Source: Acidovorax sp. A1169 (GTDB lineage: Bacteria > Pseudomonadota > Gammaproteobacteria > Burkholderiales > Burkholderiaceae_C). From it: a stretch of 64,000 nucleotides of DNA. Shown in pieces: positions 45,170-53,795 of this stretch. A program made the translations under genes and the position numbers. The notes beneath the pieces were generated by a model. The model was not told the DNA's origin and did no database searches. It saw nothing but the letters and a program-made list of their open reading frames with translations. The DNA lies in assembly GCF_030704685.1 (NCBI RefSeq), contig NZ_JAUZDX010000010.1, positions 124,001 to 188,000 on the forward strand, in the 5' to 3' direction. Each line of letters begins with the position of its first letter. The stretch's first letter is position 1.

Positions 45170-45544
45170 TCAGGTGGCGGCCAGGAAGAAATCCATGGGA
45201 ATCAGCTCGACGCCCCAGCCGCCCGCCTCACCCAGCGTAGCAGCCGGATGCATGGAGGCAAGTTGCACCGCCTCTTCACGGCTGTCCGCCTCGATGATGA
45301 ACAGGCCGCCCACCATCTCCTTGGACTCGGTGAAAGGCCCGTCGCTGATCTGCGCCTTGCCAGCGCGTGGGCGCAGGCTGACCCAGTCCTTGGCGTCCCC
45401 GAGCGACGCGGACACCAGCACCTTGCCCGTGGCGCGCATCTTCTCGTCCAGGGCGGGGCACTGGCCCACCAGGGCCTGCACATCGGCGGGCGCCATGCAG
45501 GCGAATTTTTCAGGGGCGAAGTAGGCGAGGCCGAGGTATTTCAT
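45170..45544 (-). CDS. YciI/DGPF-family protein
   Basis: A 124-aa protein of the YCII-related family: start MKYLGLAYFAPEKF, the DGPF signature (KAQISDGPFTESKEMVGGLF) and the GWGVELIPMDFF end. Dimeric alpha-beta barrel proteins; a few are dehydrochlorinases or oxidoreductase accessories, most have no known role. The riboswitch-led operon starts in the opposite direction upstream. Confidence 0.8.
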   Translation of the reverse strand: MKYLGLAYFAPEKFACMAPADVQALVGQCPALDEKMRATGKVLVSASLGDAKDWVSLRPRAGKAQISDGPFTESKEMVGGLFIIEADSREEAVQLASMHPAATLGEAGGWGVELIPMDFFLAAT

Positions 45545-45723
45545 GGACCAATCCTTGGGTAGTGGTGGCGGATGCCTTCACGACGAAGCGGACCACCAGA
45601 AATCGACAGGGTGCGCAAAAAAGCATGCTGCGCTGCAAGAATACGCCGGTGCTGGGGCAGGGCGCATGGGGCTTGCCGGGCCGCATGGCCCGATTGGGCT
45701 GCAGCAGGTTAAAATCGCGCCAT

Positions 45724-45797
45724 CGCTCCGGGGTGCACGCAAGTGCTGAGATCCACACCCGAGAACTTGAACCGGGTAATTCCGGCGGAAGAAGAGC
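45724..45797 (+). promoter_or_regulatory. TPP riboswitch (THI box)
   Basis: All conserved parts are visible: CTGAGA (45746-45751) after a GCAC-GCAA-GTGC hairpin (P3), GGGTG/CACCC forming P2, and the pyrophosphate-side region GAACTTGAACCGGGTAAT followed by TCCGGCGGAAG with P5 CCGG/CCGG. GCTC (45725-45728) and GAGC (45793-45796) close P1. It lies 100 bases upstream of the LuxE-like gene. A small hairpin GCGCA-TTTTGC-TGCGC (45818-45833) follows, with no T-run, so translational or Rho-type control is likely. TPP normally turns such genes off. Confidence 0.93.
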
Positions 45798-45898
45798 TTT
45801 CACCCCTCCCGATGCGGGCGCATTTTGCTGCGCTGTGCCGTCGATGTGCAGGGTGACCTCGGAGCATCCTGTCAAAGACAACACAAGGACGCTCGCTC

Positions 45899-46987
45899 AT
45901 GGACAAGGTCACTCCGCTGGTGGCAGACCTGCTCGAATTCATCGCGATGGATGGCTGCACGGACGAGCAGTTCGACCAGATGGCCCTGCGCCTGTTCGCG
46001 CACCAGTTCGCGGCCAACCAGCCGTTCCAGAGTTTTTGCCGGCTGCGCGGCGCTAACCTGCGCAGCGTGAAGTCGTGGGCGGACATTCCAGCCGTGCCCA
46101 TCGACGCCTTCAAGGCCATGCCGCTGCGCTGCGAGCCGCCGGCCGCAGGCGACCGCATCTTCATGACCAGCGGCACCACGCGCGGCGGCAGCACGCGCGG
46201 GCAGCACTTTCACCCGCTGCTCGATGTGTACGACCTGTCGATGACCCGCAACTTCGCGCAGCGCTTCATGCGCGGCGCGCAGCGCATGCCCATGGGCATC
46301 CTGTTCCCCGACGAGGTGGCGATGCCCAATTCCTCGCTGGCGCACTACCTGGATCTGGCCAAGTCGGCTTTCGGCAGCAGTGGCGCCAGCCAGACCTTCG
46401 TCACGCCGCAGGGCATGGACCTCGACGGGCTGTGGGCCGCGCTGGCCGCTGCCGAGCGCAGCGGCGAGCCCTATGCGCTGCTGGGCGCGAGTTTCAGCTT
46501 CGTGCATGTGATCGACGCCCTGCGCCAGCAGGGCAAGGCCTTTAAGCTGCCGCCGGGCAGCCGCATCCTGGACACCGGCGGCTACAAGGGGCAGTCGCGC
46601 GAGCTGCCGCTCGATGCCTTCTACAGCGAGCTGTCGCAGGCGCTCGGCGTGCCGCGCACGCACTGCATCAACATGTATGGCATGACGGAGCTGAGCACCC
46701 AGTTCTACGACGATGGCAATGCATCGGTGCCGTCGGTCAAGTCGGGGCCGCACTGGATCCGTTCGCGCCTGGTCGACCCGGTTACGGGGCGCACGGTGCC
46801 TGCGGGCGAGCGCGGCATTCTGGTGCACTGCGACTTGGCCAACTTCAATTCGGTCACCACCATCCTCACGGAAGATGTGGGCCTGGAGGCCGAGGGCGGA
46901 TTTCTGCTGCTGGGCCGGGCCGAGGGCGTTGAGGCCAAGGGTTGCTCGCTGGCGGTCGAGGAGTTTGTGCGGGCCACTGCGGCATGA
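45899..46987 (+). CDS. LuxE-family acyl-protein synthetase/acid-activating enzyme
   Basis: A 362-aa protein from ATG 45899 behind AAGGA. It has the LuxE fold: adenylate-forming motif FMTSGTTRGGSTRGQHF (about 90-105), SSGASQTFVTPQG, YALLGASFSFVHVID, ILDTGGYKGQSRELP and the YGMTELSTQFYDD motif. LuxE activates a carboxylic acid with ATP and holds the acyl group on a cysteine for reduction by LuxC. It is the first gene after the TPP riboswitch, which is an unusual partner for the Lux pair. It overlaps the LuxC-like gene by four bases. Confidence 0.85.
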   Translation: MDKVTPLVADLLEFIAMDGCTDEQFDQMALRLFAHQFAANQPFQSFCRLRGANLRSVKSWADIPAVPIDAFKAMPLRCEPPAAGDRIFMTSGTTRGGSTRGQHFHPLLDVYDLSMTRNFAQRFMRGAQRMPMGILFPDEVAMPNSSLAHYLDLAKSAFGSSGASQTFVTPQGMDLDGLWAALAAAERSGEPYALLGASFSFVHVIDALRQQGKAFKLPPGSRILDTGGYKGQSRELPLDAFYSELSQALGVPRTHCINMYGMTELSTQFYDDGNASVPSVKSGPHWIRSRLVDPVTGRTVPAGERGILVHCDLANFNSVTTILTEDVGLEAEGGFLLLGRAEGVEAKGCSLAVEEFVRATAA

Positions 46988-48462
46988 CCACGGCGCCCCA
47001 CCGCATCCAGGCAGGCTACCTGCCGGGGCTGCACGCTGCCGAGGTCGATTGGCAGGTGCTGCGCTTTGTGCAGGGCGACCAGGCGCTCGAAGTCGAGGTG
47101 CCGGTGCTGTCCGCGGCGCAGATGGATGCGCTCGCAGCGCGCGTGCGGCACGCCAGCGCCAGGCACCTGAAAACCATGGCGGTGTCGGAGATCATTGCCG
47201 TCATCGACCAGGCCATCGCCCGCCTGCTGGACCGGAGCGACCCCTACCGCCAGCAGGCCGAGGCGTATCTGCCCGTGGTCAGCGGCTATGACCGCGACAT
47301 GGTGCGGCTGGGGCTCACCGGCTTCTTCAAGACCTTTCGCGCAGCGCAACTGCACCGCTTTGTGGCTGAGGATTTTGCCAACCCCAAGGTGCTCGACTGC
47401 TTCCAGCCCACGCCCAAGGGCGGCGCGGTGCGCGCCTTCGGCCCCGATCTGCTGGTGCACAACTGGGCCGGCAACGTGCCCGCGCTGGCGCTGTGGAGCA
47501 TGGTCTGCGGCCTGCTGGTCAAGGCCGGCAACATCGGCAAGCTGCCGAGTGCCGAGCCCCTGTTCGCCGGCTGGTTCGCAAACCTGCTGGCCGAGGTGCA
47601 CCCGCCCATCGCCGATTGTTTTGCGGTCGTCTGGTGGCGCGGCGCAGGCGACGACGGCGCCTCTGCCCTCTATGCCCAGGCCGACACGGTGCTGGCCTAT
47701 GGCGGCAACGAGGCGCTGGACGCGATCCGGCAGCGCCTGCCGGTCACCACGCGGTTTTTGCCCCACGGGCACAAGCTGGGCTTTGGTGTCGTCAGCGCCA
47801 CGGCGCTCGATACGCTGAAGGCGCCCGCCCTGGCGCGGCTGGCCGCGTGGGATGTGATGCGCTACGACCAGCAGGGCTGCTATTCGCCGCATATCTTTTA
47901 TGTGCAGCGGGGCGGGGCGGTGTCGCCGCGTGCCTTTGCTGGCTACCTGGCCGGCGAGCTGGCCAACCTGCACCGGCGCTTTCCGCGCCGGCCGCTGCCG
48001 GTCGAGGATTCCGCCGCCGTGGCCAAGTGGCAGCAGGGGGTGGAATGGAAGGCGCTGTCTGCCTCGGCGACTGAATCTGCCGTTCAGCTGATCGGCCCGC
48101 CCTCGGCCGCGTGGAGCGTGGCCTACAGCGACACGCTGCAGCTCCTGGCGCCCACCGCGATGCAGCGCACCATCCAGGTGGTGGGCGTGGACGCGCTCGA
48201 CGATGTGGTGCCCGTGGTGGCGCCGCACAGCCGGTTTCTGCAGACCGCAGGCATCGCCGCTGCGCCGGCCGAGCTGTACCGCTTGGCCGGGCTGCTGGGC
48301 GCGGTGGGGGTCACGCGCATCAGCGCCATCGGTGCCATGAGCGCGCCCGAGGCCGGCTGGCACCACGATGGCCGCTTCAATCTGCTCGACCTGGTGCGCA
48401 TGACCGAGATCGAGCAGTCCGCCGAGTTGGCGGCCGAACCACTGGCCCCTTATGCGGATTGA
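46984..48462 (+). CDS. LuxC-family acyl-CoA/acyl-protein reductase
   Basis: A 492-aa protein from ATG 46984. It has LuxC features: LVHNWAGNVPALALWSMVCG (cofactor-binding region), VVWWRGAGDD, HGHKLGFGVVS and the nucleophile region YDQQGCYSPHIF with catalytic Cys299. LuxC reduces the activated acyl group to an aldehyde with NADPH. No LuxA, LuxB or LuxD is nearby, so it is not for luminescence; the neighbouring transporter and riboswitch point to a thiamine-related acid. It starts in an overlap with LuxE. Confidence 0.87.
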   Translation: MTTAPHRIQAGYLPGLHAAEVDWQVLRFVQGDQALEVEVPVLSAAQMDALAARVRHASARHLKTMAVSEIIAVIDQAIARLLDRSDPYRQQAEAYLPVVSGYDRDMVRLGLTGFFKTFRAAQLHRFVAEDFANPKVLDCFQPTPKGGAVRAFGPDLLVHNWAGNVPALALWSMVCGLLVKAGNIGKLPSAEPLFAGWFANLLAEVHPPIADCFAVVWWRGAGDDGASALYAQADTVLAYGGNEALDAIRQRLPVTTRFLPHGHKLGFGVVSATALDTLKAPALARLAAWDVMRYDQQGCYSPHIFYVQRGGAVSPRAFAGYLAGELANLHRRFPRRPLPVEDSAAVAKWQQGVEWKALSASATESAVQLIGPPSAAWSVAYSDTLQLLAPTAMQRTIQVVGVDALDDVVPVVAPHSRFLQTAGIAAAPAELYRLAGLLGAVGVTRISAIGAMSAPEAGWHHDGRFNLLDLVRMTEIEQSAELAAEPLAPYAD

Positions 48463-48471
48463 GTGCACGCC

Positions 48472-49218
48472 ATGAGCTTTCTTGCCATTGAGCAGGTGGT
48501 CTTCACCTACCCGGGCCGGCCGCCGGTGGTGGATGGCATCGACTGGCACATGCAGGCCGGCGAGTTCCATTGCCTGGTGGGCCGCAGCGGCTGTGGCAAG
48601 ACCACGCTGCTGCAGCTGGCTGCCGGCCTGCTGCGGCCGCAGTCGGGCCGCGTGCTGCTGCGCGGCCAGGAGCTGCTGGCGCCCGGGCCGCAGCTGGGCT
48701 TCATGTTCCAGGCGCCAACCCTGCTCGACTGGCAGCGCGTCATCGACAACGTGCTGCTGCCCGTATCGCTGCAGCGCCGCCCCGGGGCGGGCGATGTGGA
48801 GCGCGCCAAGGCGCTGCTGGACCAGCTGGGCCTGGCCGCGCATGCGCAGCACTACCCGCGGCATTTGTCCGGCGGGCAGCAAAGCCGTGTGGCGCTGGCG
48901 CGCGCGCTGGTGCTCGAGCCCGCGCTGCTGCTGCTCGACGAGCCGTTTGCCGCACTCGACGCCATCACCCGCGCAGAGCTGCAAGACGACCTGCTGCACA
49001 CCTGCCGCCAGCGCGGCACCACGGTGCTGTTCGTCACGCACGACATCAACGAGGCGGTGTACCTGGGCGACCGCATCGCCGTGATGCATGCCGGCCGCAT
49101 CGTGGACGACATCCGCATCGACCTGCCTGGCCCGCACGTGCAGGCCATGCGCGACGAGGCACCGTTCAACCGCTATTGCGCGCAGGTGCGCAAGAGCATG
49201 GATGGGGTTGCCGCATGA
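48472..49218 (+). CDS. ABC transporter ATP-binding protein (ThiZ/SsuB-type)
   Basis: A 248-aa ATPase: Walker A GRSGCGKTT (about 39-47), Q-loop MFQAPTLLDW, signature LSGGQQSRVALARAL, Walker B LLLLDEPFAALD and the H-loop FVTHDINEAVYLGD. The SGCGKTT-plus-FQ-PTLLDW form is common in the nitrate/sulfonate/pyrimidine (SsuB/ThiZ) subfamily. Cotranscribed with permease and binding protein under the TPP riboswitch. Confidence 0.87.
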   Translation: MSFLAIEQVVFTYPGRPPVVDGIDWHMQAGEFHCLVGRSGCGKTTLLQLAAGLLRPQSGRVLLRGQELLAPGPQLGFMFQAPTLLDWQRVIDNVLLPVSLQRRPGAGDVERAKALLDQLGLAAHAQHYPRHLSGGQQSRVALARALVLEPALLLLDEPFAALDAITRAELQDDLLHTCRQRGTTVLFVTHDINEAVYLGDRIAVMHAGRIVDDIRIDLPGPHVQAMRDEAPFNRYCAQVRKSMDGVAA

Positions 49219-49982
49219 AGCTGAGCAACTTGCAAGCCCGGCTCCTCTCCGCTGCGCTGCTGCTGGTGTTGCTGGCGGCGTGGGAGTTGGCTGTGCGCCG
49301 CTCCGGGCTGTCGGCGCTGGTGCTGCCTGCGCCGTCCTCGGTGGCCGCCGCGCTGTGGAACGGGGTGGCTACCGGCTATTTCTGGCCCCACATCCGGGCC
49401 ACGGTGTCGGCGCTTGTGCTGGGGCTGGTGGGTGGCGGTGTGGCCGGCCTGCTGATGGGCATGGCCCTGGCCGAATCGACCCTGCTCGAACGCGTGTTCA
49501 GGCCCTACGTGGTGGTCAGCCAGGTGGTGCCCAAGCTGGCGCTGGCGCCCCTGTTCGTTCTGTGGTTCGGCTTTGGCATCGCGCCCACGGCGCTGATCAC
49601 GGGGCTGATCTGCTTTTTTCCGCTGATGGAGAACACGCTCACGGGCCTCAAGCACGTGGACCCGCAGCGACTGCAACTGTTTCGCATGCTGGGCGCCACG
49701 CGCTGGCAGACGCTGCTGCGGCTCAAGCTGCCCGTGGGGCTGCCCGCCATTCTGGCGGGCCTGCGCATGGCCGTGGTGCTGGCGCTGGTCGGCGCCGTCG
49801 TCGGCGAATTCATCGGCGCCAGCCAGGGGCTGGGCGCCGTGGTCATCGCCTCTCAGGGAATGATGGACACCGCCCTGATGTTCGCCGCGCTCTTTCTCAT
49901 CGCCCTTATCGGGCTGGTGCTATACCAGGCCACGCTGCTGCTGGAGCGCCGGCTTCTGACCCCTTACCTCGACAACCCTTGA
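49215..49982 (+). CDS. ABC transporter permease (ThiX/SsuC-type)
   Basis: A 255-aa membrane protein with six predicted helices and the BPD-transport EAA loop (FRMLGATRWQTLLRLKLPVG, about 155-174). The N-terminal part (LPAPSSVAAALWNGVATG) is typical of SsuC/ThiX permeases for small aromatic or sulfonate substrates. It overlaps the ATPase gene by four bases. Confidence 0.87.
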   Translation: MKLSNLQARLLSAALLLVLLAAWELAVRRSGLSALVLPAPSSVAAALWNGVATGYFWPHIRATVSALVLGLVGGGVAGLLMGMALAESTLLERVFRPYVVVSQVVPKLALAPLFVLWFGFGIAPTALITGLICFFPLMENTLTGLKHVDPQRLQLFRMLGATRWQTLLRLKLPVGLPAILAGLRMAVVLALVGAVVGEFIGASQGLGAVVIASQGMMDTALMFAALFLIALIGLVLYQATLLLERRLLTPYLDNP

Positions 49983-49987
49983 TTGCC

Positions 49988-50998
49988 ATGAACCGCTTTA
50001 CCCACCCCATGCCCATCTCCCGCCGCACCGTGCTCGGCGCATCCGCAGGTTTGGTGGCCTTGCCCTTCGCCGGCCTGGCCACTGCGCAGTCCAAGGGCAA
50101 GATCACCGTCGGGGGCTGGAGCAAGCCCATCAGCGAAATCACCAACCTGCTCGCCGAGCCCGACAAGGGCTTCTTCAAGGCCCAGGGTGTCGAGCTGGGC
50201 TACGCGCCCGGGGCCGGCGGTGGCGACGCCATCCGCAACATGCTCAGCGGCCAGGCCGACGTGGCGTTCACCGACCCCGGCTCTTTCTTCACCGCGCTGG
50301 ACAAGGGCGAAAAGCTCACCGCCATCTATGACATCTATCCGCAGAACGTGTTCAACGTGGTCTCGCTCAAATCCGCCAACATCCACAAGCCGGCGGACTT
50401 GAAGGGCAAGAAGATCGGCGTGTACAGCCTGGCCAGCGGCACGCGGCAGAACCTGCTGGTGATGCTGCACCAGGCGGGGCTCAAGGAGTCGGACGTGACC
50501 ATCGTCGTCACCGGCCTGCTCAACTTCGCGCCGCTGCTGCAGGGCCAGGTCGACGCCACGGCCGCCACCGACACTGGCCTGGTGGTGGGCCAGCGCAAGG
50601 GCATCGGCGAGGTCAACGTGATGCAGGTGCGCGACTACCTGAACGTGTCGAGCGACCTCTTCGTGGTGCGCGACGAGACGCTTCCGCAGAAGAAGGAGCT
50701 GCTGCGCGCCTTCCTCAAGGGCTACCGCGACAGCGCTGCCTGGATGATCGCCAACCCCGAGGAGGCCGCGACCCTGGCCGTCAAGTACGCCATCGACGGC
50801 ACGCAGCGCGACATCAACCTGGAGGTGATCCGCCTGCGCAATGCCTCGTCGATGCCGTCCGCTGCGGGCGGCAAGCTGGGCGCCTTCAACCTCGACTCTC
50901 TGCAGAAGGCCGCCGACGCCTACCGCGCGCTGGGCCTGGTGCAGCGCCAGATCAAGGTGGCAGACGTGGTCGACACCAGCCTGCTGCCGGTGGCGTGA
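49988..50998 (+). CDS. ABC transporter substrate-binding protein (NMT1/ThiY-like)
   Basis: A 336-aa protein with a twin-arginine-type leader (ISRRTVLGASAGLVALPFAG), then the NMT1/THI5-like fold: WSKPISEITNLLAEPDKGFF, GDAIRNMLSGQADVAFTDPG, LKGKKIGVYSLASGTRQNLL. Proteins of this family bind pyrimidine precursors (ThiY), thiazoles or sulfonates. A TPP-controlled location favours a thiamine precursor or breakdown product. Residues for substrate contact cannot be read from sequence alone. Confidence 0.85.
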   Translation: MNRFTHPMPISRRTVLGASAGLVALPFAGLATAQSKGKITVGGWSKPISEITNLLAEPDKGFFKAQGVELGYAPGAGGGDAIRNMLSGQADVAFTDPGSFFTALDKGEKLTAIYDIYPQNVFNVVSLKSANIHKPADLKGKKIGVYSLASGTRQNLLVMLHQAGLKESDVTIVVTGLLNFAPLLQGQVDATAATDTGLVVGQRKGIGEVNVMQVRDYLNVSSDLFVVRDETLPQKKELLRAFLKGYRDSAAWMIANPEEAATLAVKYAIDGTQRDINLEVIRLRNASSMPSAAGGKLGAFNLDSLQKAADAYRALGLVQRQIKVADVVDTSLLPVA

Positions 50999-51020
50999 AG
51001 ACTTCAAGGGAGAACAGGCC

Positions 51021-51788
51021 ATGAAGTTCCAGGGCAAGGTGGTGCTGGTCACCGGGGCCAGCCGGGGCATTGGTGCCGCGATCGCGACGGCGTTTGCGCA
51101 GGAGGGGGCGACGGTGGCCATCAACCACCTGTCCAACGACGCAGCCGCCGCCCAGGTCGTAGCAGCCTGCCGGGCCGCCGGTGGCGATGCCTGGGCCGCA
51201 AAGGCCGATGTAGCGTCGGCGCCTGCGGTGCAGGCCATGGTCGATGCGGTCGTGCGCGAGCTCGGCCCCATCGACATCGTGGTGAACAACGCCTTTCGGC
51301 CCTACGCCTTCGACCCCCAGCGCCGCACCCTGTTCGACGACCTGAACTGGAGCGACTACCAGGCGCAGTTCGACGGTGCAGTGGGTGGCGCCTTCAACGT
51401 GTGCCGCGCGGTGCTGCCGCTGTTTCGCCAGCGGGCGCAGGGCGCCATCGTCAACATCGCCAGCAACCTGGTGGAGCACCCTGTCGTAGCCTACCACGAC
51501 TACACCACCGCAAAGGCCTCGCTGGTGGCCTTCAGCCGCAACCTGGCCACCGAACTCGGGCCCCTGGGCATCCGCGTGAACTGCGTGGCCCCCGGGCTCG
51601 TCTACCCCACGCAGGCCAGCGAATCCACGAAGGAGTCGTTTCGCGAATCGCTGATGGCGGCCACGCCGCTGCGGCGCATCGCCCGGCCCGAAGATATCGC
51701 CGGACCCGTGCTCTTCCTGGCCTCGGACTGGGCTGGGTTCATGACCGGGCAGGTGCTGTTTGTGGATGGCGGGTTGGTGATGCGGTAG
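51021..51788 (+). CDS. short-chain dehydrogenase/reductase at end of TPP-riboswitch run
   Basis: A 255-aa SDR: TGASRGIGAAIA (about 12-23), NNAFRPYAF (NNAG-type), catalytic S...YHDYTTAKAS (Tyr-x-x-x-Lys), and C-terminal GQVLFVDGGLVMR. It starts 22 bases after the binding-protein gene with AAGGGAGA as ribosome-binding site, so it is probably part of the operon. It could take the aldehyde made by LuxC on to an alcohol. Confidence 0.82.
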   Translation: MKFQGKVVLVTGASRGIGAAIATAFAQEGATVAINHLSNDAAAAQVVAACRAAGGDAWAAKADVASAPAVQAMVDAVVRELGPIDIVVNNAFRPYAFDPQRRTLFDDLNWSDYQAQFDGAVGGAFNVCRAVLPLFRQRAQGAIVNIASNLVEHPVVAYHDYTTAKASLVAFSRNLATELGPLGIRVNCVAPGLVYPTQASESTKESFRESLMAATPLRRIARPEDIAGPVLFLASDWAGFMTGQVLFVDGGLVMR

Positions 51789-51806: not shown

Positions 51807-52805
51807 TCATGAGCGGTTTGAATCTGGCACCAGCAGAATCTTCCCCACACTCAGCCCCGTCTCCATGCGCCGGTGCGCCCCGGTCGCATCCTCCAGCGGA
51901 TACGTGCTGTCGATCACCGGGCGCAGCGTGCCATCGGCCAGCGCGCCCAGCCAGCGCTGGGCAAAGCGCTGCGTCATGGCCTGCTTGACCTCGGGCGGGC
52001 GCGACTTCATCACGGTGCCGTAGATCTGCAGGTGGCGGTAGAGCAGCACGTCGATGGGTAGCTGGGCGCCTTCGGTCGCGCCGCCGAGCAGGCCCACGAC
52101 CGTCATGCGCCCGCCCACTGCCAGCGAGCGCACGTTGCGCTCCAGGTAGGGGCCGCCGATGAAATCGATCACCACGTCCACGCCCTTGCCGCCGGTCTGG
52201 TCGGCCACCACGGCCTGGAAGTCCTCGCTGCGGTAGTCGATGAACACATCGGCGCCCAAGCCCAGCACGGCGTCGCGCTTGTCGGCGCTGGCGGTGGCGA
52301 ACACGCGCGCGCCGGCGGCATGGGCCAGTTGCACCGCAGCCGAGCCCACACCGCCTGCGGCAGCGTGGATCAGCACCGACTCGCCGGCCTGCAGGCGCGC
52401 CAGGTGGAACATGGCTTCGTGCGCGGTGACGAAGACCTCGGCCACGGCGCCGGCCTGCAGCAGCGACAGGTTCTGCGGCACACGCATGGCCATGCGGTGG
52501 TCGATGCGCGAATACTCGGCATACGCTCCTCCCCCCACGATGCCCATCACGCGGTCGCCCACGGCAAAGCCCTGCACCTCGGGGCCCACCTCGGCCACGG
52601 TGCCGGCGACCTCCAGGCCCATCAGATCCGAATCGCCGAAGTAGGCGCGGCCATAGGCGCCCTTGCGGTGCGACAGGTCGGCGCGGTTCACGCCGATGGC
52701 GGCGTTGTGCACCAGCAGGTCGTGCGGGCGCACTTCAGGGCGGGCAACTTCGCGGGCCACGAGGACTTCGGGGCCGCCGAACTGGTCGAAGACGATGGCT
52801 TGCAT
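51807..52805 (-). CDS. NAD(P)H:quinone oxidoreductase (zinc-free MDR)
   Basis: A 332-aa protein from ATG 52805, of the quinone oxidoreductase/zeta-crystallin type: MQAIVFDQFGGPEVL start, GAYGRAYFGDSDLMGLEVAG, cofactor motif AAAGGVGSAAVQLAHA, and no zinc-ligand cluster. It probably reduces quinones or enals. It ends 18 bases after the stop of the SDR on the other strand; the LysR gene upstream is divergent and its likely regulator. Confidence 0.88.
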   Translation of the reverse strand: MQAIVFDQFGGPEVLVAREVARPEVRPHDLLVHNAAIGVNRADLSHRKGAYGRAYFGDSDLMGLEVAGTVAEVGPEVQGFAVGDRVMGIVGGGAYAEYSRIDHRMAMRVPQNLSLLQAGAVAEVFVTAHEAMFHLARLQAGESVLIHAAAGGVGSAAVQLAHAAGARVFATASADKRDAVLGLGADVFIDYRSEDFQAVVADQTGGKGVDVVIDFIGGPYLERNVRSLAVGGRMTVVGLLGGATEGAQLPIDVLLYRHLQIYGTVMKSRPPEVKQAMTQRFAQRWLGALADGTLRPVIDSTYPLEDATGAHRRMETGLSVGKILLVPDSNRS

Positions 52806-52893
52806 GGTGGGTTTCCTTTTTTCAGATCCAGTGATGGTGCACAGCTTAGGTCGGAAAGGTGCTTGTGAAATGCAGCGTTTTTGCTGCCCAGTG

Positions 52894-52907
52894 ATGCAAA
52901 ATTGCAT
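52894..52907. promoter_or_regulatory. inverted repeat at start of LysR gene
   Basis: ATGCAA-AA-TTGCAT, perfect 6-bp arms, 3 bases before the LysR start codon and 88 bases from the oxidoreductase start. Divergent-gap position fits an autoregulatory operator. A weaker CAGCG/TGCTG pair lies just upstream. Confidence 0.5.
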
Positions 52908-52910
52908 TGC

Positions 52911-53795
52911 ATGAACTGGGACGACACGCGCATCTTTCTCGCACTGACCCGCTCGCCCTCGCTGCGTGCCGCAGCGCGCAGCCTGGGCGTGGACCAGGCC
53001 ACGGTGGGCCGGCGCCTGCAGGCGCTGGAGGCAGAACTGGGCGCCACGCTCTTTCTGCGCGCCAAGGGCGGCTACCTGCTCACTGCGGCGGGCGAGGCGG
53101 CGCTGGGCGCGGCCCGGCGCATGGAGGCGGCGGCGCTGGACCTGCGCACCCGCATCGAGGGGCAGGACGAGAGCCACTCAGGCCTGGTGCGCGTCACAAG
53201 TTCGGATTCGATTGCCATGGACTTCCTGCTGCCCGCCATCGAGCGGCTGCAGCAGCGCTGGCCCGGCATCCGCGTGGACCTGGAGGTGTCCACCCAGGTG
53301 CTCAGCCTGAGCCGCCGGCAGGCCGACATCGCCTTTCGAAACGTGCGCCCCGATGCGCCCGACCTGGTGGTGCGGCGCGTGGCCTCGTGGTCGGTGGGGC
53401 TGTTTGCCAGCGCGGCGTATCTGGAGCGCTTTGGCATGCCCGTGCCTGACGACGAACTGCGCGGCCACCATCTTGTGGCCTATGGCCCGACCCTGGAGCA
53501 GCGGCCGTTCCCCACGGCGGCCCAGGTGCCAGCCCGCCAGGCCCGCATCGCCATGGCGGTCAACTCCGGCCTGTTGGTGCGCAAGGCGGTGGCCGCCGGC
53601 ATCGGCCTGGGCGAGATGCCGGTGCACCTGGGCGAGCGCGAGGGCTTGGTGCGCATCTGGCCCGAGCGGCGGCGCGCCAACGACCATGAAGTTTGGCTGG
53701 TGATGCACCCCGACCTGCAGCGCACGGCCCGGGTGCGGGCGACGGCGGAGTTTCTGTCGCAGGCGCTGGGGCAGAGCCTGTCTGAAATGGGGTGA
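52911..53795 (+). CDS. LysR-family transcriptional regulator
   Basis: A 294-aa protein from ATG 52911 (MNWDDTRIFLALTRSPSLRA). The HTH part is AAARSLGVDQATVGRRLQAL and the rest is a LysR substrate-binding domain. Divergent from the quinone-oxidoreductase gene, which is the likely target. The start at MNWDD is chosen because family members usually begin 5-8 residues before the first helix. Confidence 0.87.
   Translation: MNWDDTRIFLALTRSPSLRAAARSLGVDQATVGRRLQALEAELGATLFLRAKGGYLLTAAGEAALGAARRMEAAALDLRTRIEGQDESHSGLVRVTSSDSIAMDFLLPAIERLQQRWPGIRVDLEVSTQVLSLSRRQADIAFRNVRPDAPDLVVRRVASWSVGLFASAAYLERFGMPVPDDELRGHHLVAYGPTLEQRPFPTAAQVPARQARIAMAVNSGLLVRKAVAAGIGLGEMPVHLGEREGLVRIWPERRRANDHEVWLVMHPDLQRTARVRATAEFLSQALGQSLSEMG

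Follow-up and report, generated by a model that had tools for sequence, protein, structure and literature searches.

The operon and its predicted riboswitch

We analyzed a 64,000-nucleotide stretch of the genome of Acidovorax sp. A1169 (contig NZ_JAUZDX010000010.1, positions 124,001 to 188,000; hereafter the window, whose numbering is used for coordinates), which holds a six-gene operon coding for LuxE-like and LuxC-like enzymes, an ATP-binding cassette (ABC) importer and a short-chain dehydrogenase/reductase (SDR), preceded by a putative thiamine pyrophosphate (TPP) riboswitch. An earlier note on this DNA had described these six genes as tightly packed in one direction, ending with an NMT1/ThiY-like binding protein and the SDR. 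This description held: all six were matched by Pfam models, the LuxE/LuxC and ATPase/permease genes overlap by four bases, and the remaining gaps measure 9, 5 and 22 bases. The features are as follows.

45719..45810, plus strand: TPP riboswitch aptamer (THI element), predicted; RF00059 51.8 bits, E 3.3e-9; counterpart upstream in relatives
45899..46987, plus strand: LuxE-like acyl-protein synthetase (proposed acid activation); PF04443 3e-15, 56.3 bits against 24.9; profile match to LuxE of PDB 7xc6
46984..48462, plus strand: LuxC-like acyl-thioester reductase; PF05893 5e-79, 266.6 bits against 21; Cys299 aligned with 7xc6 LuxC
48472..49218, plus strand: ABC importer ATPase, ATG start; PF00005; best NCBIfam models of sulfonate/nitrate types, below cut-off
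49215..49982, plus strand: ABC importer permease; PF00528; four-base overlap of its ATG with the ATPase stop
49988..50998, plus strand: NMT1/THI5-type periplasmic binding protein; PF09084 2e-50, 172 bits against 20.5; profile matches to Thi5 (4h6d/4h65) and 3ix1
51021..51788, plus strand: SDR, proposed aldehyde-to-alcohol step; PF13561 9e-60; motif residues invariant

The riboswitch had been proposed in the earlier note together with a covariance search to verify it. This search returned a match over the full length of the Rfam model (positions 1-105 of 105), although its score lies 2.5 bits under the gathering score of 54.3 bits, which no match in the entire 64-kb window reached. That gathering score was exceeded in three (L019, L021 and L022) of the seven operon loci scored with RF00059. 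At E <= 0.001, the whole 6.8 Mb window genome yielded four matches, namely the one at the operon and three others, which precede thiC (contig C1) and a CytX-like permease or open the thiO-thiG-thiE cluster (contig C34); the last of these scored 40.4 bits and was likewise under the cut-off. On C34 the CytX-like permease and thiO-thiG-thiE each stand at an RF00059 match, with thiD between them on the opposite strand (L005:6462-11888). A consensus of 34 related aptamers contained 19 pairs, only three of which showed double changes, because these sequences are very alike; the case for the predicted aptamer thus rests on the Rfam score and not on covariation.

Profiles of LuxE and LuxC matched the LuxE-LuxC complex 7xc6 and no other PDB chain at E 1e-5. 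The C-terminal Cys349 of LuxE (KGCS) was conserved in all 29 aligned orthologues and aligns with the KGCS cysteine of 7xc6_E, and Cys299 of LuxC (QQGC), reported in the earlier note and confirmed here, was equally invariant (29 of 29) and aligns with the QQAC cysteine of 7xc6 LuxC. We take these cysteines of 7xc6, including the C-terminal one of LuxE, to carry the acyl group. Pfam matches and conserved cysteines place both proteins in their superfamilies (PF04443 and PF05893). Against the equivalog models, LuxE scored 51.3 bits (NF052244, long-chain-fatty-acid--protein ligase, cut-off 550) and LuxC 75.6 bits (NF052251, long-chain-fatty-acyl-CoA reductase, cut-off 750). Both proteins thus fall far under the equivalog scores, and the window LuxE is judged a member of the LuxE superfamily and not the bioluminescence enzyme. 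In the SDR, the glycine-rich nucleotide motif (T12, G13, R16, G17, I18, G19) as well as N90, Y162 and K166 were invariant in 28 of 28 sequences, and position 149 was Ser in 19 and Thr in nine. Asn36, which replaces an acidic residue, suggests NADPH as its cofactor. No hydrolase, amidase, amidohydrolase, TenA, LuxD-like or luciferase-like gene was found in the window operon by the Pfam scan.

Conservation and association with thiamine genes

A scan of genome contigs yielded 265 stretches, 250 of which encoded a LuxC relative, and the best 80 of these 250 were kept (hereafter the 80 loci). To judge by record titles, they derive mostly from Burkholderiales and some from Alphaproteobacteria, and the closest named relatives of the window LuxC belong to Acidovorax sp. 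Root219 (94%) and CF316 (93%). Seventy loci had all six genes in the order and orientation of the window, and six others are cut off within the operon by a contig end (L026, L037, L068, L074, L080, L098). LuxE-LuxC-SDR without ABC genes occurred in four alphaproteobacterial metagenome-assembled genomes (MAGs; L085, L087, L096, L101), which we call marine from some of their isolate names. The earlier note had staked its reading on the conservation of the riboswitch and LuxE/LuxC arrangement, and this arrangement did recur across many genera, too widely to be due to chance. In two of the marine MAGs a luciferase-like monooxygenase gene stands divergent from the riboswitch (L087:2066-3262 and L096:5473-6576), its nearest models being SfnG/RutA, below cut-off.

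In 39 of 48 genomes, RF00059 matched at most 600 nucleotides ahead of luxE and on its strand, a result independent of any model trained on these loci. A model built from 34 of those aptamers matched in 91 of 96 loci, upstream of the operon by coordinates; this count includes a few genomes twice, as well as the 34 training sequences, whose matches follow from the way the model was made. The twelve weakest of these matches (E 2e-6 to 1e-4) scored far below the rest, and that of L087 was only partial, yet RF00059 gave 64.3 bits there. Among the five loci lacking a match, three start inside the operon (L037, L080, L093).

Genes of thiamine synthesis accompany the operon in part of the 80 loci. Fifteen of them have thiD, coding for the kinase of hydroxymethylpyrimidine (HMP) and its phosphate, inserted after the riboswitch and before luxE (two copies were scanned, both over the TIGR00097 cut-off), and a cut fragment of thiD was seen in L093. 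Downstream, thiE, thiO or thiG occurred within 9 kb of luxC in 13 loci: thiE was present in 11, and two had thiO alone on contigs that stop shortly beyond it. In L083 and L092 thiG is on the other strand, as is thiO in L092. The longest order, riboswitch-thiD-luxE-luxC-ABC-ABC-SBP-SDR-thiO-thiG-thiE (SBP, substrate-binding protein), was that of L077, whose genome has thiC elsewhere. Similar clusters came from more distant members of the family sample described below, such as luxE-to-SDR-thiO-thiG-thiE (L108) and thiD-luxE-to-SDR-thiE (L112), both from genomes without a thiC match, and luxE-to-SDR followed by a reversed thiD and then thiO-thiG-thiE (L107, with a thiC match in its genome, and L109, with none). 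Among thiC, thiD, thiE, thiG and thiO, thiC was the only gene never found beside the operon.

The operon also occurs on plasmids. LuxC matched 54 plasmid records, in 28 cases across 80% or more of its length, and three were examined. An Azospirillum lipoferum plasmid carries all six genes behind a TPP riboswitch, and two large Pantoea plasmids (NZ_CP074351.1 and NZ_CP155067.1; L104 and L105) carry LuxE-LuxC-SDR alone, with TPP riboswitches of 71.7 and 68.5 bits; the Pantoea loci may point to horizontal spread. Unlike them, a record named Pantoea sp. 18069 (L030) holds the complete six-gene operon with a LuxC 77% identical to that of the window, which would be explained by a recent transfer or by mislabelling or contamination of the assembly. 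A single phage record of 50,697 matched LuxC, distantly (26%), and megablast of the operon DNA against the E. coli collection gave zero matches. Outside the window operon, a YCII-domain gene (45170-45544, minus strand) has counterparts next to the operon in L017, L018, L024 and L025 only, and the interval 51807-53795 contains a zinc-type quinone oxidoreductase gene (minus strand) and a LysR regulator gene (plus strand).

Distribution of LuxC relative to thiC, thiG and CytX

We searched 49 operon genomes for thiC and thiG. The former was found in 37 (as pieces only in the L089 genome) and not found in 12. Judging by record titles, seven of these 12 are MAGs, for which absence is weaker evidence, and five come from isolates, one of Variovorax dokdonensis and four of Ramlibacter. 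Ramlibacter isolates without a thiC match include R. montanisoli, R. paludis, R. alkalitolerans and R. lithotrophicus. Full-length thiG (E below 1e-90) was present in 45, and the other four, the marine MAGs, gave only weak matches (E 4e-8 or worse). Genomes with thiD in the operon lacked thiC far more often than the others (6/7 versus 6/42, p 4e-4).

We also searched a sample of 300 genomes from the family of the window genome, at least 95% complete and drawn evenly from a larger group. LuxC (E <= 1e-60) was present in 31 of them: eight of the 13 genomes with thiG but without thiC, 23 of the 211 with both genes, none of the six with thiC only and none of the 70 with neither. The contrast between 8/13 and 23/211 was significant for these genomes, which are related to one another (Fisher p 4.4e-5), and after collapsing to genera, with a genus list made by hand and one genus on both sides, it was 6/11 versus 13/79 (p 0.01). 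Two traits of a pyrimidine salvage operon were thus observed, an upstream TPP riboswitch match and occurrence in genomes that lack thiC but retain thiG, along with many carriers that have thiC. In some relatives the operon seems to take the place of the gene that normally provides the pyrimidine.

Other sources of pyrimidine were then compared in the window genome and in genomes with thiG but without thiC, comprising 16 with LuxC (eight from the sample and eight from the 49-genome set) and five from the sample without it. A putative CytX-like permease (E <= 1e-20) was found in 5/5 genomes without LuxC versus 2/16 with it, and in the sample taken by itself in 5/5 versus 1/8 (p 0.005). None of the 13 sample genomes of this class lacks both LuxC and the CytX-like permease, and one carries the two together, a pattern that would be expected of two routes to HMP. 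In the window and L061 genomes, the CytX-like permease gene directly follows a TPP riboswitch. TenA was present in 3/16 genomes with LuxC (i.e., not found in 13) and 1/5 without, and the ThiB-type importer, the only thiamine importer searched for besides, in 2/16 and 1/5.

Proposed pathway, alternatives and known systems

We consider it probable, from gene content and distribution, that the operon is repressed by TPP and salvages the pyrimidine half of thiamine, importing an acid and reducing it in two steps to HMP. The pyrimidine half is favored because thiD lies inside the operon of some relatives and because LuxC occurs in genomes without thiC but with thiG. At low TPP, the ABC importer would take up the acid form of HMP, most likely 4-amino-2-methylpyrimidine-5-carboxylate, whose acid would give HMP on two-step reduction. 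LuxE would activate the carboxylate with ATP and hold it as a thioester on Cys349, and LuxC would take the acyl group on Cys299 and, using NAD(P)H, form the aldehyde, which the SDR would reduce to HMP. ThiD would convert HMP to its pyrophosphate, which ThiE would join to the thiazole made by ThiG. 4-Amino-2-methylpyrimidine-5-carboxylic acid is named as a thiamine metabolite in rat urine in the title of Neal and Pearson 1964 (cited in PMC7780320). The vitamers listed in PMC10881298 are HMP, aminomethylpyrimidine (AmMP), formylaminopyrimidine (FAMP), hydroxyethylthiazole (HET) and its carboxylated form (cHET), with no pyrimidine acid named among them.

On the importer side, the binding protein belongs to the NMT1/THI5 superfamily (PF09084), as do ThiY and thiamine pyrimidine-binding proteins, with Thi5 and 3ix1, the FAMP-binding protein, among its profile matches. 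In the L085 genome, where luxE has no ABC genes next to it, relatives of the ATPase, permease and binding protein (58-62% identity) are encoded elsewhere (L118:3569-6306), directly behind a second TPP riboswitch of that genome, so that transporter and enzymes are tied to the same signal though encoded apart. In the L087 genome a TPP riboswitch (72.9 bits) directly precedes what, to judge from its sequence, is a branched-chain-amino-acid-type ABC importer (L116:6891-8366), possibly another importer of a thiamine precursor. A Liv-type importer in L117 is not claimed as a riboswitch target, since there the riboswitch is 3' of the importer.

Several observations weigh against the salvage of a pyrimidine acid. 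The leader folds no better than shuffled sequences (z -0.10), and an expression platform drawn from this fold, which also differs from the aptamer, was rejected. The riboswitch is absent at L089 and L091 with the trained model and Rfam alike. The best PDB match of the binding protein, in single-sequence and profile searches alike, is the uncharacterised exported protein 3qsl; the taurine-binding protein 6ssy (6e-7) outranks 3ix1 (4e-6) in the single-sequence search, and the nearest NCBIfam transporter models are of sulfonate/taurine/nitrate and Sao types, all below cut-off, so homology leaves the ligand unproven. A simple association with thiC loss was rejected, as LuxC was not enriched in genomes without thiC (8/83) over those with it (23/217); the signal appears only once thiG is taken into account. 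Moreover, 23 of the 31 LuxC genomes of the sample have thiC, as does the window genome, so that in all of these the operon can only be a supplement; the window genome has a CytX-like permease too. Every CytX match was under the curated cut-off, and the same was true of the controls from E. coli, B. subtilis and S. acidocaldarius; the CytX assignment is therefore putative, and some of these proteins may be other permeases. Finally, the four marine MAGs have LuxE-LuxC-SDR without thiC or full-length thiG.

These MAGs, which keep a ThiE-family gene, cannot discriminate between a pyrimidine, a thiazole and the repair of whole thiamine. The same acid-to-alcohol chemistry could act on a thiazole derivative (4-methylthiazole-5-acetic acid), yielding hydroxyethylthiazole for ThiM, and both the proximity of thiO/thiG to some operons and the marine MAGs would fit this. 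We regard it as quite unlikely, given that thiG accompanies LuxC in 31 of 31 sample genomes, eight of them without thiC, that thiD is in the operon of 15 of the 80 loci, and that LuxC occurs in none of the six genomes with thiC but without thiG (too few to weigh much); a thiazole product was thus rejected as the principal interpretation. Thiamine acetic acid is an oxidation product of thiamine, and an operon turning it back into thiamine would suit MAGs devoid of thiC and thiG. However, such repair leaves unexplained the thiD and thiE genes beside the operon and the thiG gene in all 31 LuxC sample genomes, and the ThiE-family gene of the marine MAGs also speaks against it; it was rejected and we hold it to be very unlikely.

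A further alternative keeps the pyrimidine and supposes that another HMP relative (an ester, amide or conjugate) is imported, LuxE and LuxC acting on an acid formed from it inside the cell. The kinship of the binding protein with the FAMP-binding protein, the separate encoding of importer and enzymes (L085, L118) and the Pantoea plasmid loci without ABC genes are in its favor, but the window operon has no hydrolase or amidase and the six genes follow each other closely in relatives, and we judge it unlikely. Most improbable of all is an acyl-reductase operon that serves, for instance, sulfonate or fatty-acid metabolism and has a TPP riboswitch without any part in thiamine supply. The sulfonate-type transporter models and a taurine-binding protein among the closer PDB matches point in that direction, whereas the riboswitch match in 91 of 96 loci, the thi genes beside or inside the operon and the pattern with thiC, thiG and CytX all argue otherwise.

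The earlier note had suggested TPP-controlled import of a carboxylated precursor and its reduction by LuxE, LuxC and the SDR from acid through aldehyde to alcohol. The genome evidence supports this core and, by way of thiD in the operon and LuxC in genomes lacking thiC but having thiG, the pyrimidine among its two options, while the thiazole (e.g., thiazole acetic acid) is disfavored. Once narrowed to the pyrimidine, the proposal seems essentially right, describing a salvage pathway of a known kind with a new enzymatic core that is widely conserved. We lean, by a little, toward the wider view that this route of vitamin B1 salvage is widespread but has gone undescribed, in which the free acid is an environmental precursor and LuxE-LuxC-SDR, not ThiC, would be the pyrimidine source in lineages which, like several Ramlibacter, make only the thiazole.

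Vitamin B1 exchange shapes microbial communities. If the proposed pathway is real, a compound that vitamer surveys leave unmeasured could sustain strains scored as pyrimidine-deficient, and the pathway would recycle thiamine waste that has been oxidised. Beyond bioluminescence, the LuxE/LuxC families would then also serve primary metabolism, in a thiamine pathway built on luciferase-type reductases. The earlier note knew of no thiamine pathway using Lux-type reductases, and we likewise found no report of LuxE or LuxC in thiamine metabolism in the literature searched, most subscription journals and RegPrecise lying outside the search, so that a mention there is possible. An oxidoreductase, oarX, reportedly figures in the THI-regulated set of Rodionov et al. 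2002. In its portion on TPP regulons, PMC3766115 names neither oarX nor ThiY nor an acyl-CoA reductase, and in the relevant passages of PMC6955855, PMC3599157 and PMC9964548 Lux and thiamine words occur apart, by chance.

Three known systems resemble parts of the operon. With the LuxC-LuxE fatty acid reductase of bioluminescence (PDB 7xc6), the window pair shares PF04443/PF05893, the conserved cysteines and gene adjacency, but it falls under the equivalog cut-offs and lies in a thiamine-linked setting, in an operon without a LuxD- or luciferase-like gene. The ThiXYZ genes are under TPP-riboswitch control, and FAMP is salvaged via ThiXYZ/ThiY, TenA and YlmB. Common to that system and ours are the NMT1/THI5-type binding protein and, as proposed here, the salvage of a thiamine pyrimidine derivative to HMP; in contrast, the window operon has no amidohydrolase or TenA gene, and the proposed acid would need activation and two reductions. 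The hydroxymethylpyrimidine permease CytX (TIGR02358; matches here under the curated cut-off) also supplies pyrimidine and stands behind a TPP riboswitch in the window and L061 genomes, but it belongs to an unrelated transporter family and, since by its family name it takes up HMP itself, it needs no enzymes.

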